Assembly (NCBI RefSeq): GCF_016464385.1
Contig: NZ_JADMLH010000007.1
Location: forward strand, 62,001-126,000
DNA from: Nucisporomicrobium flavum
GTDB taxonomy: Bacteria > Actinomycetota > Actinomycetes > Mycobacteriales > Micromonosporaceae
Reading direction: 5' to 3'
Length of the DNA: 64,000 bases
Shown here: positions 6,988 through 63,403 of the stretch, in pieces
Position numbering within the stretch: position 1 is the first letter of the stretch
Layout: every line of letters starts with the position of its first letter
Position numbers and translations under genes: made by a program
The notes under the pieces: model-generated
The model's database searches: none
Told to the model about the DNA's origin: nothing
Seen by the model: the letters and a program-made list of their open reading frames with translations, nothing else

Positions 6988-8451
6988 ATGGCAACCAGTT
7001 CCAGCCGGAGACCGGGGGTCTTCGCCATCAGGGACGTGCGGTCGCTCATCACCGAGACCGCCGAGGAGGGCCACGGCCTGAAGAAGGCGGTCGGCCCGCT
7101 GCAACTGACCGCCATGGGCGTCGGCGCGATCATCGGCACCGGTATCTTCGTCGTCATCGGCGAGGGCGCCGGGGTGGCCGGCCCGGCGGTGATCCTGTCG
7201 TTCGTGCTGGCCGCCGTGGCGTGCGCGTTCTCCGCGCTGTCCTACGCCGAACTGGCGTCGTCGATCCCGGTCTCGGGCAGCGCCTACACCTACACGTACG
7301 CCACCCTCGGCGAGATCGTCGCGTGGATCATCGGGTGGGACCTGATCCTCGAGTACGGCGTCTCGGTGGCCGCGATCGCGGTCGGCTGGGGCGGCAACCT
7401 CAACGCGTTCCTCGACGCGGCGTTCGGCTACACGCTGCCGGACGCGATCGCGAAGTCGCCCGAGGACGGCGGGGTCTTCAACCTGCCCGCGGTCTTCATC
7501 GTCCTGGCGATCACGCTGCTGCTGTGCCGCGGCGTCACCGAAAGCGCCCGGGTCAACCTCGTCATGGTGGCCGTGAAGCTCACCGTCCTGCTGTTCTTCA
7601 TCGTGGTGGCGTTCATCAACTTCGGCACCGGCAACTTCCAGCCGTTCGCCCCGGACGGCATTGACGGGGTGACCGCCGCGGCGGCGATCATCTTCTTCGC
7701 GTACATCGGGTTCGACGCGGTCTCCACCGGCAGCGAGGAGGCGCGGAACCCGGCGAAGGACCTGCCGAAGGCCATCATCGGGTCGCTGCTGATCTGCACG
7801 CTCTTCTACGTGCTCACGGCGGTCGGCGCGATCGGCGTCGCCAGCCCGCAGCAGCTGGAGAGCAGCGACGCCCCGCTCGCCGCCGCCCTGGACCAGGGCG
7901 CCGGCATCGGCTGGGCCGCGGCGATTCTCGCGCTGGGGGCGGTCGTCGCCATCACCAGCGTCGTCCTGGTCATCATGTACGGCCAGACGCGCATCTTCTT
8001 CGCCATGTGCCGCGACGGCCTGCTCCCCCAGCGCCTCGCCGCGGTCAACCAGCGGTACGGCACCCCGGCCCGGCTCACCATCATCCTGGGCGTGCTCATC
8101 GCGATCCTGGCGGCGCTCGTGCCGCTCTCCGAGATCGTCAAGCTGGTCAACATCGGCACCCTGTTCGCGTTCGTGCTGGTGAACATCGGTGTGATCATCC
8201 TGCGCCGGACCCGGCCGGAGATGCCGCGGCCGTACCGGGTGCCGTGGTCGCCGGTGCTGCCGATCCTCGGCGTGGCCTTCGCGATCTACCTGATGGCGGA
8301 CCTGCCGCTGGCGACGTGGATCCGGTTCGTGGTCTGGCTGGCCGTCGGCATGGCCATCTACTTCCTGTACGGCTACCGCAACTCCCGCGTGCGGCGGGAG
8401 AACGCGACCGGGACGCCGAGCTGGGCGCGCGAGGACGGTGAGCAGCCGTGA
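6988..8451 (+). CDS. APC-family amino acid permease
   Basis: 487 residues, strongly hydrophobic, about 12 transmembrane helices. It has the APC signature GVGAIIGTGIFVVIGEGAG in helix 1 and FFAYIGFDAVSTGSEEARNP in the middle, typical of cationic-amino-acid-type (YfnA/CAT) permeases that move amino acids with protons across the cell membrane. A purine-rich ribosome site (GAGGGGGGCGGG) precedes the ATG. Its TGA overlaps the GTG of the universal stress protein gene, so the two are coupled. Substrate specificity cannot be read. Confidence 0.93.
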   Translation: MATSSSRRPGVFAIRDVRSLITETAEEGHGLKKAVGPLQLTAMGVGAIIGTGIFVVIGEGAGVAGPAVILSFVLAAVACAFSALSYAELASSIPVSGSAYTYTYATLGEIVAWIIGWDLILEYGVSVAAIAVGWGGNLNAFLDAAFGYTLPDAIAKSPEDGGVFNLPAVFIVLAITLLLCRGVTESARVNLVMVAVKLTVLLFFIVVAFINFGTGNFQPFAPDGIDGVTAAAAIIFFAYIGFDAVSTGSEEARNPAKDLPKAIIGSLLICTLFYVLTAVGAIGVASPQQLESSDAPLAAALDQGAGIGWAAAILALGAVVAITSVVLVIMYGQTRIFFAMCRDGLLPQRLAAVNQRYGTPARLTIILGVLIAILAALVPLSEIVKLVNIGTLFAFVLVNIGVIILRRTRPEMPRPYRVPWSPVLPILGVAFAIYLMADLPLATWIRFVVWLAVGMAIYFLYGYRNSRVRRENATGTPSWAREDGEQP

Positions 8452-57015: not shown

Positions 57016-57309
57016 ATGTCGGCACGAGGAATGCTGAGTGTGGTCGGGACCGCCGTCGGCGGCCTGATCGGCTGGAACGGCGAGCCGGTACCGGCCGCGG
57101 ACCCGGCGGCGGTGCGGGAGCTCTTCGCCGATCTCGGCCTGACGGTGGGCCCGGACCCGGCCGGCCTCGACGCGGCCATCCGCCGCTTCCAGGACCGGGT
57201 CGGCCTGGAACCCGACGGCGTCGCCGGGCCGCACACGGTTCACCTGCTCACCCGGTACGCCAAGGAGGCCCGCGAGCTGCGCCGCTTCGAGCGCGCGGCC
57301 GCCGCCTGA
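57016..57309 (+). CDS. Peptidoglycan-binding-domain small protein
   Basis: 97 residues. The C-terminal 60 contain a PG_binding_1 pattern: AAIRRFQDRVGLEPDGVAGPHTVHLL. No signal peptide is obvious (LSVVGTAVGGLIGWN is short and weak). GGAGGTAG precedes the ATG. Probably binds cell wall or acts inside a larger assembly; role unknown. Confidence 0.8.
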   Translation: MSARGMLSVVGTAVGGLIGWNGEPVPAADPAAVRELFADLGLTVGPDPAGLDAAIRRFQDRVGLEPDGVAGPHTVHLLTRYAKEARELRRFERAAAA

Positions 57310-57365: not shown

Positions 57366-59210
57366 TCACCGCCCGGTCCGCCCGGCGAGGGCCGCGAGCG
57401 CGGTGAGGCCGGGCAGCAGGAAGTATTCGCCGCCGCGGCAGGTGACCAGCGGCCGCGGGATGGGCACGTACGCCGGCGGTTCCCCCTCGACCAGCACGCG
57501 CGCCCCCGGACCGCCGGCCGTGGTGAAGACGTCCTGCTCGCCGCCGCGGCCGAACACGTTGCCGTCGGCCATCCATTGGGTCTGCACGAACTCGAACTGC
57601 CGGTGGATGTCGCCGACCACGGCGAGGAAGAGCAGCCCTCGCTCCCGCGCGTCGTCCGGAACCCCGTCGGGCAGCTCCGGCCCGTACGGGATGCCGCGCC
57701 GCAGCATCATGTGCCGCCGCGACAGCCGGATGCCCCCGGGCAGGGTACCGAGCGGGTTCGCCCGGCGTACGTGCGAGGCGACCGGGCACCGCTCCAGCGA
57801 GGAGCCGTCGATCGCCCGCCCCACCAGCGCGGCGGCCACGTCGCCGGCACCACCCTCGAACCGGTCCGCGACGGCCGCCGTGGTCTCCCGGAACGCGGCG
57901 ACGTCCTGCTCGAGCTTGCGGTAGACCAGGAAGCTGCCGTTGCGGGCCAGGTCGGCGGGGATGCCCCGGCCGGCCGCGTCGCCGTCCACATCGGGCAGGC
58001 CGAGGACGAACTCGCCGGGCGGCAGCAGCTCGTCGCCGGCGCCCTCGTCGTACCCGTCGATCTTCGGGGTGGACAGGCCGTCGGCGAACCCGAAGTGCTC
58101 GACGAAGGTGCGCCGGCCGCCCCGGTCGGCCAGCAGGCGGTCGCCGCGGATCTCCCCTGCGACGGTGACGCCGGCGTCCGGCCCGGTCCCGGCGCGCAGC
58201 TCGCGCAGCGACGCGTCGAGGATCTCCCGCGTGGTGGCGGAGACCATGAGCACCGCGTGCACCGCGCCCGGGCGATCGAACGGGGCGGCCCAGGGACCGG
58301 TGCCCCGCCCCGGCGACAGCGCGGCCTCGCGGGCGTACATGCCGGCGCGGAACTCGTCGGGGAAGGCGTCCAGCTCGGCACCGGTGACGCCCAGCGCGGC
58401 CAGGCCGGCGTGGCTCAGGCCCAGGTGCAGCGCCCGGTTGGGCCGTTCCTGCACCTCGGCGGCGGAGGTCACGCGCGGCGCCAGCTCGCCCAGCCAGGAT
58501 CGGGCCGCGTCCGGTCCGGCGAAGCGCAGGAAGAGGTGGGCCGCCGCATGGTGGTGGCCGAAGCCACGCAGCACCATGCCCTGGATGTCGCCGAGCCGCA
58601 GCGCCTCGGAGACCACCGCCCGGGGCCGCTGCGGCACGGGCGCCGGGCCCGACGTGGTCAGCGCGGGGACCCGGCCGGCGTTCCCCTCGGCCGCCAGCGC
58701 CGCGAGCCGGCGGCGCATCCCGGCCGCCTCCCGCAGCTCGCCGACCGTGCCGCCCGGCGCGCCGGCGAAGGTGTAGTCCGCGCGCTGGCTGCGCTCCACG
58801 AAGAACCGTACGAAGCCGGCCGCGCGCTCGCTGCCGGGGTATCCGGTGCAGTGCTCCCAGATCGCGTCGGCCTGCGGCCCGAGGGCCCGCATCCCGGCGA
58901 AGAAGCGCTCCTGCGGCCCGTCCACCGTGGCGGTCAGCAGCAGGTACGGGTGCGGCAGCCGGTCCGGGCGCGGCCCCCGCCCGGCGTGCACCACGAGGTC
59001 GAGCAGCCGCGCCTTCCAGCGCCACACGGCCGGGCGGACCTGCGCGACGACGTCCTCGACGACGACCAGCCGTACCACGTGGACGCCGGGTACGTGGGCG
59101 AACGGCGTACCCGCCTCCCGCAGGGTCTTGCGCAGCGCCTCCACCCGGTCGTCGGCGATGCGGGCCAGGACGGTCACGGACCGGGTACCCCGGTCAGGCT
59201 GCGAGGTCAT
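57366..59210 (-). CDS. DyP-type heme peroxidase with N-terminal accessory domain
   Basis: 614 residues. Residues about 205-614 are a DyP peroxidase: GFADG at 374-378 (GxxDG with catalytic Asp), proximal heme His in ASHVRRANP (about 480), and distal Arg in RRGIPYG (about 505). Residues 10-170 form a separate domain that resembles the neighbouring 192-residue protein. No Tat signal, so it is cytoplasmic or rides with a partner. The start overlaps the upstream gene by 17 bases. A divergent LAL regulator is at 59880. Confidence 0.9.
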   Translation of the reverse strand: MTSQPDRGTRSVTVLARIADDRVEALRKTLREAGTPFAHVPGVHVVRLVVVEDVVAQVRPAVWRWKARLLDLVVHAGRGPRPDRLPHPYLLLTATVDGPQERFFAGMRALGPQADAIWEHCTGYPGSERAAGFVRFFVERSQRADYTFAGAPGGTVGELREAAGMRRRLAALAAEGNAGRVPALTTSGPAPVPQRPRAVVSEALRLGDIQGMVLRGFGHHHAAAHLFLRFAGPDAARSWLGELAPRVTSAAEVQERPNRALHLGLSHAGLAALGVTGAELDAFPDEFRAGMYAREAALSPGRGTGPWAAPFDRPGAVHAVLMVSATTREILDASLRELRAGTGPDAGVTVAGEIRGDRLLADRGGRRTFVEHFGFADGLSTPKIDGYDEGAGDELLPPGEFVLGLPDVDGDAAGRGIPADLARNGSFLVYRKLEQDVAAFRETTAAVADRFEGGAGDVAAALVGRAIDGSSLERCPVASHVRRANPLGTLPGGIRLSRRHMMLRRGIPYGPELPDGVPDDARERGLLFLAVVGDIHRQFEFVQTQWMADGNVFGRGGEQDVFTTAGGPGARVLVEGEPPAYVPIPRPLVTCRGGEYFLLPGLTALAALAGRTGR

Positions 59211-59772
59211 CGTCACGCTCCCATGCGTGCAGGTCACCCTGGACGGCGGCCAGGAACCGCGGCCACGCCGGGTGGGCCGGCGCGTCGGCGGGATCGGTGT
59301 CGCCGAGATGGTCGCTGTAGGCGTCGCGTACCCGCAGCGCGGCGGCGATCTCGCTCACCGAGGACTCCGGGTACGCCGACCAGTAGTGGTCGACGGGCAG
59401 GTCGTTGCGCCGGATGTAGCGGCGGAACGGCTCCGTGGGCAGCGCGCCCGGGAAGCCGTACGACCAGCCCCAGATCAGCGCCATCCGCAGCGGGATGACG
59501 ATGGAGAAGGCGTCGATGTACTCGTCCCAGTCGCCGTTGAAGTCGCTGCGGAACAGCAGGTACGCGTACCGCGTGCGGCGCTCCTGGCCCGGGAACCGGG
59601 TGATGACGCTCCAGTGTGCGAAGTGGATGAACGACATGTCCTGCAGGTCCCGGCTGGGCCCGAGGCGCTTGCGCAGGTACAGGATCGCCCGCAGCGGCCC
59701 CGCCCACAGCCTCGGCATCGGGCTGAGCACGGTGAGCGCCGTGCTCCGCCCGGAGTGCCCTGTTCCGTTCAT
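59194..59772 (-). CDS. Hypothetical protein homologous to the DyP N-terminal domain
   Basis: 192 residues. Residues 45-151 (MSFIHFAHWSVITRF, RYAYLLFRSDFNGDWDEYID, LIWGWSYGFPGA, FRRYIRR, YPESSVSEIAAALRVRDAY) align along their length with residues about 36-170 of the peroxidase encoded next. No known family recognised. First gene of the operon; its end overlaps the peroxidase start. Probably a substrate-handling or partner subunit of the peroxidase. Confidence 0.75.
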   Translation of the reverse strand: MNGTGHSGRSTALTVLSPMPRLWAGPLRAILYLRKRLGPSRDLQDMSFIHFAHWSVITRFPGQERRTRYAYLLFRSDFNGDWDEYIDAFSIVIPLRMALIWGWSYGFPGALPTEPFRRYIRRNDLPVDHYWSAYPESSVSEIAAALRVRDAYSDHLGDTDPADAPAHPAWPRFLAAVQGDLHAWERDDDLAA

Positions 59773-59832
59773 GGCTGGCTCCCCCGGTGGACGCTCGCCC
59801 GGCCGGCCGGCGCCGACGCGGTACTGACATCC

Positions 59833-59857
59833 TCGTATGCGGACAACTCGTATGCGG
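59833..59857. promoter_or_regulatory. Direct repeat upstream of LAL regulator
   Basis: TCGTATGCGG twice (59833-59842 and 59848-59857), 15 bases apart, followed by a partly inverted copy CCGGCATAC at 59862-59870. It sits in the 107-base divergent region between the peroxidase operon and the LAL gene. Confidence 0.55.
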
Positions 59858-59879
59858 CCAACCGGCATACACTCGGCCG

Positions 59880-62600
59880 ATGATGCTCGGACGGACCGCC
59901 GAACGTGCATTGATCGACGGTCTTCTGACAGACGCCCGGGCCGGGCGCAGCGACGCCCTGGTGCTCACCGGGGAGCCGGGCATCGGCAAGACCACCTTGA
60001 TCAAGTACGCGCTCGACCACGCCGAGGGTATGCGGGTGCTCAGCGCCCGCGGCTACGAGGCGGAGTCCGAGATCCCGTTCGCCGGTCTGTCGGACCTTTT
60101 GCGGCCGGTGCTCGCCGAGCTGGACGGCCTGCCCGCCCCGCAGGCCGCCGCGCTGCGCAGCGCCCTCGCGCTGGGCCCGCCGGTGGCCGGCGACCGCTTC
60201 TCGGTCTGCGCCGCGACCGTGGGCCTGCTGTCGGCGGCGGCGCAGGGCGGCCCGCTGCTGGTCGTCGTGGACGATCTGCAGTGGCTCGACGCGTCGTCGC
60301 GCGAGGCCGTGCTCTTCGCCGGCCGGCGGCTGCAGTCCGACGGCATCGCGCTGCTGCTCGCCACCCGCAGCGCCTCGGACACCGCCGAGCTGCGCGCGCC
60401 GCACATCGCGCTGAGCGGGCTGAGCCTGGAGGAGGTCGACACCCTCGCCCGGGCCACCCTGGCGGCCACCCCGGCCGGGACGGCGGCCCGCCTGCACGCC
60501 GCGACCGCCGGGAACCCGCTCGGCGTGATCGAGATGTGCCGGGAGTGGACCGACCCGGCCGAGGACCCGATCGGGGCACCCGTGATCCCGACCGGCTCGC
60601 GGCTCGAGCGCTCGCTGGGCGCCCGGCTCGCGCAGCTGCCCGAACCGACCCGCCGCGCGCTCGTGCTGGCCGCGGCGGCGGCCGGCGGCGACATCGGCAC
60701 GCTGCTCGCCGCGGCCCGCGCGACCGGGCTCCAGCTGCGTGACTTCGCGCCCGCGGAGAAGGCCGACATCGTCACGATCGACGAGCGCCGGGTCGACTTC
60801 CGTCACCCGATGCTGCGGTCGCTGGCGTACTACGGCGCCTCCATGGACGACCGCTGCGCCGCGCACACCGCGCTGGCCGCCGCGCTCGCCGGCGAACCCG
60901 GTGACGCCGCCGCCGACGCCCGCGCCTGGCACCTGGCCGCGGCGACCCTGGAGCCCGACGACGACGTCGCCGCCGAGCTGGAGAGCGCGGCGCAGCGGGC
61001 GGTCGGGCGCGCCGGGTACGTGGCGGCCGCCCGGGCCTTCGGCCACGCCGCGCGGCTGAGCCGCGGCCCCGACCGGCCCCGCAGGCTGCTGCGCGCCGCC
61101 CGGTGCTGGCAGCTCGCCGGCCGCAACGACCAGGTGCTGCCGCTGCTCGCCGAGGCGCTGCCGCTGACCACCGACCCGGGCCGGCGCGCGGTCATCCAGC
61201 ACATGGACGCGTACGTGCGGATGTGGCGGGAACGGCCGGACGGTGCCCTGGAGCGGCTCACCGCCAGCGCGCACGCCGTGGAGCTGGCGGACCCGGCCCG
61301 CGCCGCGCTGATGTATTCCGACGCCTGCATCCCGTACTTCATGATCGGCCGGATCGACGAGCTGCAGGAGGCGGTCCGGCGCGCGCACGACCTGGGCGTG
61401 CGGGTCGGCGGCGTGGCGCGCCTGGTCGCGGCCGTGGCGTACGCCGGCGGCCGGGCCCTGCAGGGTGAGCGCGCCGAGGCGGCCCGGCTGCTGACCGACT
61501 GCCACGACGAGCTGCTGCGCGCCGACCCGCTCGTCCGCGCCCAGGAGATGTGCCACGCCGCGCTGACGTGGATCTGGCTGGACGGCTACGACCGGGCCGG
61601 CGAGCTGCTGGACCGGGTCGTCGACGCGGCCCGGGCCACCGGGGCGCTGGGGGTGCTGCCCCAGGCCCTGGGCGTGCAGTCGGAGCTGCAGTTCCGCACC
61701 GGCCGCTGGCACGACGCCCGGGTCAGCGCGGCGGAGAGCCTGCGCCTGGCCAGCGAGACGCGCTCGGCGAACCTGTACGGGCTGTTCTTCGCCGGCCGCC
61801 TCGACGCGGTCCAGGGCCGGGTGGACGACTGCGAGCGCCGGGTGGGCCGGACGGAGGAGGTCGCGCAGCGGCTCGGCATCGACTGCATGGCCCTCTACAC
61901 CGGGCACGAGCGGGGCCTGCTCGCGCTCAGCCAGGGCGACGCCGCGGAGGCGATCACCCGGCTCGAGGCCGTCCGCGAGCTCCCGGTGGTCCGGCAGATC
62001 CACGACCCGGCCGTGGTCCCGTGGGTGTTCGACCTGGTCGAGGCGTACGTCCGCGCCGGCCGCCCGGACGACGCCACGCAGCTGCTGGACGCGCCGGAGG
62101 CCGCCGGTGAGGGCGTCTGGGCGCGGGCGGCGGCGCTGCGGTGCCGGGCACTGCTCGCCGAGCCGGGCGAGATGCGCGAGGCGTTCGCCGGCGCGCTGGC
62201 CGCCGAGGCGTGCGCGGTGATGCCGTTCGAGCGGGCCCGCACCCAGCTGGTGTTCGGCGAGCGGCTGCGCCGGCAGCGGCAGCGCGCGGAGGCCCGGGAG
62301 CACCTGCAGGCGGCGCTGGAGACCTTCGAGCGGCTCGGCGCCCAGCCCTGGGCGGACAAGGCGCACACCGAGCTGCGCGCCACCGGCACGTCGGTGACCC
62401 GCGCGGACGCCGGCCTGCCCGGCCTCACCCCGCAGGAGCTGCAGGTGGCGCTGGTGGTCGGCCGGGGGGCCACCAACCACGAGGCGGCGGCCACCCTCTT
62501 CCTCAGCCAGAAGACCATCGAGTACCACCTCAGCAACATCTACCGGAAGACGAACATCCGCTCCCGGTCCGAGCTGGCGGGCATCGCGGCCGGGAATTAG
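59880..62600 (+). CDS. LAL-type LuxR-family regulator (AAA ATPase + HTH)
   Basis: 906 residues. The start GRTAERALIDGLLTDARAG leads to Walker A GEPGIGKTT and Walker B LLVVVDDLQWLD, a helical TPR-like middle, and a C-terminal LuxR HTH: LTPQELQVALVVGRGATNHEAA, FLSQKTIEYHLSNIYRKTNI. LAL regulators use ATP and a ligand to activate operons, often for secondary metabolism. No ribosome site is seen before ATG 59880. Divergent from the DyP operon, its probable target. Confidence 0.93.
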   Translation: MMLGRTAERALIDGLLTDARAGRSDALVLTGEPGIGKTTLIKYALDHAEGMRVLSARGYEAESEIPFAGLSDLLRPVLAELDGLPAPQAAALRSALALGPPVAGDRFSVCAATVGLLSAAAQGGPLLVVVDDLQWLDASSREAVLFAGRRLQSDGIALLLATRSASDTAELRAPHIALSGLSLEEVDTLARATLAATPAGTAARLHAATAGNPLGVIEMCREWTDPAEDPIGAPVIPTGSRLERSLGARLAQLPEPTRRALVLAAAAAGGDIGTLLAAARATGLQLRDFAPAEKADIVTIDERRVDFRHPMLRSLAYYGASMDDRCAAHTALAAALAGEPGDAAADARAWHLAAATLEPDDDVAAELESAAQRAVGRAGYVAAARAFGHAARLSRGPDRPRRLLRAARCWQLAGRNDQVLPLLAEALPLTTDPGRRAVIQHMDAYVRMWRERPDGALERLTASAHAVELADPARAALMYSDACIPYFMIGRIDELQEAVRRAHDLGVRVGGVARLVAAVAYAGGRALQGERAEAARLLTDCHDELLRADPLVRAQEMCHAALTWIWLDGYDRAGELLDRVVDAARATGALGVLPQALGVQSELQFRTGRWHDARVSAAESLRLASETRSANLYGLFFAGRLDAVQGRVDDCERRVGRTEEVAQRLGIDCMALYTGHERGLLALSQGDAAEAITRLEAVRELPVVRQIHDPAVVPWVFDLVEAYVRAGRPDDATQLLDAPEAAGEGVWARAAALRCRALLAEPGEMREAFAGALAAEACAVMPFERARTQLVFGERLRRQRQRAEAREHLQAALETFERLGAQPWADKAHTELRATGTSVTRADAGLPGLTPQELQVALVVGRGATNHEAAATLFLSQKTIEYHLSNIYRKTNIRSRSELAGIAAGN

Positions 62601-63175
62601 TGCCATGCGTACGACCCCAGGCCGCTGCCCTCGAGCTGGGTACGCAGCTTGCGCAGGGACCGCATGCGGGTGGGGCCGATGCTGCCGACGGGCATGTTGG
62701 TGATCCGGGCGAACTCGGCGTACCCGGGGGCGTTGCTGCTGCTCAGGGTGGTCAGCAGGGCCCGCGCGGGCGCCGGGAGCCGGTTCACGTGCTGCCAGAG
62801 CAGGTCGTTCATGCTGCGCTCGACGGCGGCGCGCTCCGGTTGCGGCTCGCGCTCGTCGGGGCGGTCGGCCTGGTTGTCGAGGCCGACGATCTCGCGCCGG
62901 CCGTGGCGCAACAGCTGCAGGCATTCGCGGCGGGCCACCGTGGCGAGCCAGGCGCCGGCCCGCTCGGGGTCGCGCAGGTCGCCGAGCCGCTCGACCATCC
63001 GCAGCCAGGTGTTCTGGACGGCGTCCTCGGCGTCGGCCTCGGAGAGCCGGAACGAGCGGACGGTCCACCACACGAGCGCCTCGAACGTACGGATGAGCGT
63101 CTCGCGGGCCCGGGTGTCCCCCGCCTGGGCGTCGAGAATGGTCTGACGGATGCCGTCGGATTCGTTGGTCGTCAT
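62597..63175 (-). CDS. ECF-type RNA polymerase sigma factor
   Basis: 192 residues. Region 2: FEALVWWTVRSFRLSEADAEDAVQNTWLRM, with LATVARRECLQLLR after it. Region 4: MNDLLWQHVNRLPAPARALLT and EFARITNMPVGSIGPTRMRSLRKL, a HTH for the -35. ATG 63175 is used; GGGAGG lies 12 bases upstream. No anti-sigma gene adjoins. Convergent with the LAL gene (stops overlap by four bases). Confidence 0.9.
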   Translation of the reverse strand: MTTNESDGIRQTILDAQAGDTRARETLIRTFEALVWWTVRSFRLSEADAEDAVQNTWLRMVERLGDLRDPERAGAWLATVARRECLQLLRHGRREIVGLDNQADRPDEREPQPERAAVERSMNDLLWQHVNRLPAPARALLTTLSSSNAPGYAEFARITNMPVGSIGPTRMRSLRKLRTQLEGSGLGSYAWH

Positions 63176-63403
63176 GGGTCTCGCGTCCTCCCGTGTCAGC
63201 ACCCGTCCGACGCTAGGGATTCCGGCACCCCGGGAGATCCGGGCGGCACCCTAGCCGTCGAGGCGCACCACCCTGGGGTTCGTACGTCCCCCGGGTGTCG
63301 GCCATCCGATCGGATCTGGGTCGCCGGGGTGTATCAACCGGCCGCCGGGCCCCCCGTAGGGTGTCCGTCCACAGTGCTGGAGCTCCCCGTGGAAGGACGA
63401 TCC

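Follow-up and report, generated by a model that had tools for sequence, protein, structure and literature searches.

Why should a peroxidase carry at its N-terminus a domain that is also made, as a separate protein, by the overlapping gene next to it? This question is raised by a pair of reverse-strand genes of Nucisporomicrobium flavum (Actinomycetota), located within a stretch of 64,000 nucleotides (RefSeq assembly GCF_016464385.1, contig NZ_JADMLH010000007.1, positions 62,001 to 126,000 of the forward strand), which is referred to below as the window and numbered from its first letter. The longer gene (57366..59210, - strand) encodes P0001, a DyP peroxidase of 614 aa with a fused N-terminal copy of a domain that we call SM (SM-b; 58644..59207, - strand). 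The shorter gene (59194..59772, - strand) encodes P0002, or SM-a, a free-standing predicted ferredoxin-like protein of 192 aa, delineated from its open reading frame, an SM profile match and a structural model. An initial annotation of this DNA had described both proteins, a 17-base overlap of their genes and a LAL regulator gene facing them. All of this can be read from the sequence, the overlap (59194-59210) being counted from the ATG start of P0001 at 59210; an alternative in-frame GTG at 59237 would make it longer. A known kind of enzyme, DyP, appears to be joined here by an undescribed accessory family, in an association that is old and more widespread than was first proposed.

SM-a and the approximately 190 N-terminal residues of P0001 are, on the evidence of their sequences, homologous. 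BLASTP aligned residues 84-168 of P0001 with residues 66-149 of P0002 at 22 identical positions of 86 (single-comparison E 1e-5), and the Smith-Waterman score of the two proteins (67) was reached by none of 2000 shuffles (mean 31.4, standard deviation 5.2), in agreement with the earlier observation that segments of the two align in order. The profile-profile comparison that the initial annotation had proposed, performed with two groups of 7 and 6 sequences, matched 145 columns of the SM-a and SM-b profiles with a probability of 98.7 and E 1.9e-16. The SM profile itself matches SM-b at i-E 3.5e-52, a value obtained with an alignment that includes the SM-b sequence.

The family appears to be unnamed and undescribed. 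Neither P0002 nor residues 1-200 of P0001 matched any Pfam or NCBIfam family (for P0002, none in Pfam at E<=1), and neither protein matched a PHROGs family. When 19 SM members were compared with Pfam, only seven weak families were obtained at E<=0.1, with one member each (best 0.0068), and the families of antibiotic biosynthesis monooxygenases and IsdG were not among these seven. The best sequence matches in the PDB (E 0.22 and 0.23) were to unrelated proteins and were rejected as relatives. A search of viral contigs yielded one pattern stretch and no relatives, and within the genome of N. flavum (G000) residues 3-60 of P0002 have a weak match at C19:35088-35285 (E 0.043). No account of such a partner family was found in the open-access literature, a coverage from which subscription journals are mostly absent.

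Structural models place both copies, with moderate confidence, in one fold class, the ferredoxin-like half-barrel. The predicted structures of SM-a and SM-b each look like one ferredoxin-like half of a dimeric alpha+beta barrel, so that the folds of the two regions appear related, and the idea of an accessory fold that occurs as a pair, with one copy free and the other attached to the peroxidase, is supported by both the profile match and the models. Residues 6-150 of SM-b have alpha+beta barrel proteins as their fold matches, and matches of the SM fold include ActVA-Orf6, SnoaB, tetracenomycin cyclase, sugar mutarotases, IsdG, IsdI and MhuD. A Foldseek search with SM-a returned nothing at E <= 0.001, its top rows, all above that value, being a mixture of insulinase-type peptidases, hydroxynitrile lyase and monooxygenase-type proteins. 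The full-length model of P0001 has a mean pLDDT of 45, and only its better parts were used. SM is predicted to share the dimerising unit of antibiotic biosynthesis monooxygenases, IsdG/MhuD and mutarotases, but it differs from these proteins in the lack of a Pfam match for P0002, in its position beside DyP and in the retention of two unlike copies as a pair in many loci.

The remainder of P0001 is a DyP domain (57369..58601, - strand), defined by its PF21105 match, its alignment with the structure 8RE3 and its motif positions. DyP_N (PF21105) is recognised at residues 208-344 with 33.8 bits (cut-off 27.5), Dyp_perox_C (PF20628) scores 19.9 bits, just below its cut-off of 20 (E 6.5e-4), and TIGR01413 covers residues 224-604 with 91.8-93 bits, below its cut-off of 100.5 (E 4.8e-26). 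P0001 is probably an active DyP, because the motifs of Asp377 (GFADG) and His480 (ASHVRR) are kept and Arg504/505, preceding GIPYG, lie at what we take to be the place of the distal Arg in other DyPs. In the alignment, the two motifs correspond to GXXDG and SHIRR of 8RE3, whose residues are numbered Asp189 and His324 (PMC10820274); Arg248 of the same enzyme, the Deinococcus radiodurans DyP (DrDyP), is also named there. DrDyP (DR_A0145, 8RE2/8RE3), the closest solved relative by phmmer E-value, shares with P0001 the DyP fold region, the GXXDG Asp and the axial His. Together with an ancestral D-type enzyme and fungal DyPs, which are assigned to class V (PMC10820274), it ranks first among the PDB matches of P0001 by E-value and among the fold matches of its DyP region. 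P0001 is therefore termed here a class V-type DyP (formerly C/D), a class assignment made by best matches. Three more DyPs encoded by the same genome (on contigs C10, C7 and C2), unlike P0001, all exceed the TIGR01413 cut-off.

The pairing of SM with DyP is not peculiar to this locus, and the survey of genomes suggested in the initial annotation revealed its recurrence across several phyla. Within the family, SM was found in 12 of 150 genomes, each with an SM copy no more than about 1.1 kb from a DyP gene; for G111 the distance was taken from L020, whose length identifies it as presumably the same contig, in another (G149) SM-a lies at the end of one contig and SM-b with DyP at the start of another, and at L033-L035 about 1 kb separates SM from DyP. 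In a survey of the phylum, SM was present in at least 5 of 296 genomes, a lower bound since 11 candidates were scored per genome (11 of 147 in the window genome), and in all five a DyP lies within about 1.3 kb. A Pfam DyP_N search of the same survey recovered at least 6 of 296 genomes, three of them without SM by profile; this is likewise a lower bound, as the search missed the DyPs of the window and of genome G380. At least 49 distinct plasmid records were matched by two SM queries, with 40 of 47 records listed for the second query and 60 of 73 and 60 of 81 covered by two other listings. Among them, 38 have a listed DyP match within 787 bases of SM (by coordinates, irrespective of strand). 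Of the other 11, all five that were read by profile (L060, L087-L090) have a DyP beside SM; the rest are five records from Sulfitobacter and one from Streptomyces. Among the hosts of SM-DyP pairs are members of Actinomycetota, Acidobacteriota (Granulicella), Deinococcota, Cyanobacteriota (Nostoc, Gloeothece) and Pseudomonadota. The SM profile gave no match at E 0.01 among 4294 shuffled frames.

SM seems to accompany one kind, or branch, of bacterial class V-type DyP rather than DyPs generally, since the three other DyPs of the window genome (L083-L085) have no SM in their flanks (at most about 1.5 kb), and the genome-wide profile search lists only the window pair (among the 11 of 147 candidates scored). 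Nor was SM seen by the DyPs of L039, L040, L051, L052 and L056 (flanks of at most about 1.5 kb) or of L076-L080 and L082 (4 kb flanks). Directly upstream of three of these SM-less DyPs lie hypothetical proteins of 376-467 aa (L076:2586-3986, L080:2595-3722, L082:2763-3980), none with a Pfam match above cut-off, which possibly represent a second accessory family.

SM and DyP are combined in several gene forms. Three separate genes, SM, SM and DyP, occur in Granulicella (L057), in a Solirubrobacterales metagenome-assembled genome (L022) and at the second locus of genome G102 (L026), and SM-b is fused to DyP in the window and at L020, L021, L023 and L025. Two SM domains share one open frame at L030 and in Skermanella (L064); the annotated start of the Skermanella gene falls within its first SM domain, and a DyP and a P450 gene come after it; in Rhizobium (L061) SM, SM and DyP form a single protein of 974 aa. 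Polypeptides of the order P450-SM-SM-DyP are encoded in Pararhizobium (1423 aa; L058:1670-5938), Sulfitobacter (1620 aa; L060:1577-6436) and Novosphingobium (1443 aa; L081:692-5020), the P450 match of the last being below cut-off (20.2 against 22.8 bits). Loci in which a single SM and its DyP are accompanied by a gene of the catalase family are found in Deinococcus, Acinetobacter, Agrobacterium, Terrarubrum, Rhodococcus, Rhizobium and Haematobacter. Catalase or catalase-family genes adjoin single-SM DyPs at L059:7116-8201 (Pfam catalase match under cut-off), L062 (over cut-off), L063, L065, L066, L068 and L069; no catalase annotation was found near the DyPs of L071, L073 and L075. At two rhizobial loci (L061, L089) a DNA/RNA non-specific endonuclease and an endonuclease/exonuclease/phosphatase-type gene adjoin SM-DyP, with a Pfam match just below cut-off at L061. 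Locus L087 carries two SM frames of 248 aa with equal E-value (477-1220 and 7112-7855), 6.6 kb apart and one directly before DyP, which looks like a recent segment duplication.

Out of 82 loci, trees were built with 50 SM domains from 35 loci and with the DyPs of 47 loci, omitting duplicates, fragments and near-copies. In the tandem-type loci, the nine first SM copies form one clade (support 100/98) and the nine second copies another (100/95), the two being sisters (97/90). A second two-copy set (L058, L060, L061, L064, L081 and L030), four of whose six members have a P450 within the gene or next to it, gives a first-copy clade of five rows (95/87, L030 outside) and a second-copy clade of six (98/94). 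For the two-copy loci taken together, a single origin of the first copies is neither shown nor rejected (approximately unbiased [AU] test, p 0.106), and the same holds for the second copies (p 0.246). In the DyP tree (47 rows), a branch (97/92) separates the 11 SM-less DyPs from the others, and single clades comprise the second set (99/96), the tandem-separate loci (96/88) and the fused group (100/100). The fused DyPs lie on a long branch beside the SM-less DyPs, and the AU test does not reject a grouping of them with the DyPs of the tandem-separate loci (p 0.264). The fused SM-b copies fall within the second copies, adjoining L022 (96/90).

Judged by these trees, SM-a and SM-b are an old paralogous pair: the duplication, reflected in the supported sister clades of first and second copies, predates the fusion. 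Because the fused copies nest within the second copies next to L022, the joining of SM-b to DyP appears to be a derived event of a single actinobacterial lineage. The proposal that the N-terminal domain of the DyP had been duplicated next door therefore stands as regards homology and the presence of free and fused copies; as a local duplication it does not, given the separate-gene relatives and the two sister clades. Of 50 SM copies, 45 share a His at the beginning of the second strand, and 37 have an Arg three residues after it. This Arg is retained by 14 of 15 second copies and 19 of 20 single copies but by 4 of 15 first copies (Fisher p 0.0005, ignoring the relatedness of the sequences), a pattern hinting that one half of the pair may have lost a site.

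Starting from the homology, the adjacency to DyP, the old paired duplication and the repeated fusions, we infer a barrel pairing, a physical complex and an effect on the enzyme. A heterocomplex of SM-a with SM-b-DyP would be the simplest reading. As diverged copies of a predicted half-barrel family, SM-a and SM-b may come together as a hetero-dimeric alpha+beta barrel in which the SM-b half is tethered to the class V-type DyP and the SM-a half is co-made from the overlapping gene. Such a barrel is suggested by the conservation of an unlike SM pair, and a fixed partnership with DyP by the gene overlap and the fusions. In this fold class, barrels are assembled from single ferredoxin-like units that form homodimers or heterodimers or that are duplicated and fused (PMC4835899), and SM genes occur in corresponding arrangements: singly, as unlike pairs and as fused pairs. 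Siroheme decarboxylase (PDB 4UN1, PMC4835899) provides a precedent for a barrel made from two related, non-identical gene products, although it represents another family with another function, and the SM pairing is only presumed.

The barrel would set the state of the DyP heme site or supply substrate. Activation or gating is our first choice, because recombinant DrDyP is reported to be low-spin and inactive at pH 7.5 (PMC10820274) and an SM gene (product WP_051618841) lies one base upstream of the DrDyP gene; an activator role is therefore testable in D. radiodurans, whose locus has one free SM, as against the fused and free copies of the window. The DrDyP authors suggest the involvement of other proteins, e.g. 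encapsulin (section 2.5), and the terms operon, neighbo, partner and hypothetical are absent from the main text of their article (PMC10820274). DR_A0145 and the product of the next gene, DR_A0146, are both reported to be raised after UVC/vacuum (PMC5731708). This account is weakened by the existence of SM-less DyPs and by the fact that fungal class V DyPs work alone. We put the chances at about even that the SM-a/SM-b barrel is a dedicated DyP subunit of this kind.

Many proteins of the dimeric alpha+beta barrel fold are cofactor-free oxygenases, cyclases or isomerases, and the SM barrel might itself be such an enzyme, acting before or after DyP in a pathway, with loose contact or none. The matches to ActVA-Orf6, SnoaB, tetracenomycin cyclase and sugar mutarotases, the conserved His and Arg, and the pathway-like recurrence of catalase-family or P450 genes in SM loci all point this way. 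Yet the adjacency to one branch of DyPs and the repeated fusions are closer than a pathway partnership requires, and no Pfam monooxygenase family was matched, which makes this rather unlikely. Handling of heme by the pair, which would load DyP or bind a second heme or heme product, we consider improbable: IsdG, IsdI and MhuD are among the fold matches and SM stands beside heme enzymes (DyP wherever looked at, P450 or catalase-family proteins in some loci), but the conserved His sits where the second strand begins and the other DyPs of the window genome lack SM in their flanks.

Cargo presentation, as envisaged in the initial annotation, or targeting of DyP to an encapsulin shell fares far worse. 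Some DyPs are encapsulin cargo (PMC8197335), and encapsulin is the possible partner named for DrDyP; the encapsulin family PF04454 was, however, not found in the window genome (0 of 1), where the link was rejected, while a control search was positive in 3 of 14 known genomes. That the pairing reflects chance or a functionless local duplication is hardly credible: the low pairwise identity (22/86) would allow it, but it is contradicted by the SM-DyP adjacency counts and by a two-copy order kept, in two clades, in Acidobacteriota and Actinomycetota.

Upstream of SM-a, a divergent intergenic region of 107 bases (59773..59879) separates its start from that of the LAL (AAA-LuxR) gene (59880..62600, + strand). 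Its product, P0003 (906 aa), contains AAA_16 (6.5e-21) and GerE (9.4e-13), and has the N-terminal AAA ATPase, C-terminal LuxR helix-turn-helix and length (about 900 aa) of LAL proteins. A near-full-length LAL match adjoins SM-a in 5 of 16 loci searched (L020, L021, L023, L024, L025), and L022 has a weaker LAL-like frame (E 2.5e-9) interrupted by a contig end. The other ten lack a match, among them L028, which is another contig of the gene set of L024. The neighbour is thus conserved in part only, and is probably a lineage-specific regulator of the SM-a/DyP operon. The intergenic region holds a 15-base direct repeat (59832-59862, 2.1 copies); we do not claim it as a LAL operator, because its conservation was not seen in five relatives. 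Beyond the LAL gene and convergent to it lies a gene for a Sigma-70 region 2 protein (62597-63202), and on the opposite side one for a peptidoglycan-binding domain protein (57019-57309).

The true physiological roles of DyPs have been called unclear in a review (PMC8197335). The SM family provides a concrete candidate partner for this DyP branch, fused to DyP in at least two ways. We tentatively raise the further possibility that SM is the missing subunit of one entire branch of the bacterial class V DyPs: as a homodimer, heterodimer or fused pair, the barrel would dock onto DyP, switch its heme from a resting low-spin form to the active one at neutral pH or supply its real substrate, and couple it to a P450 or catalase-like partner. 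If this were true, past studies of isolated DyPs of the SM branch would have lacked half of the enzyme.
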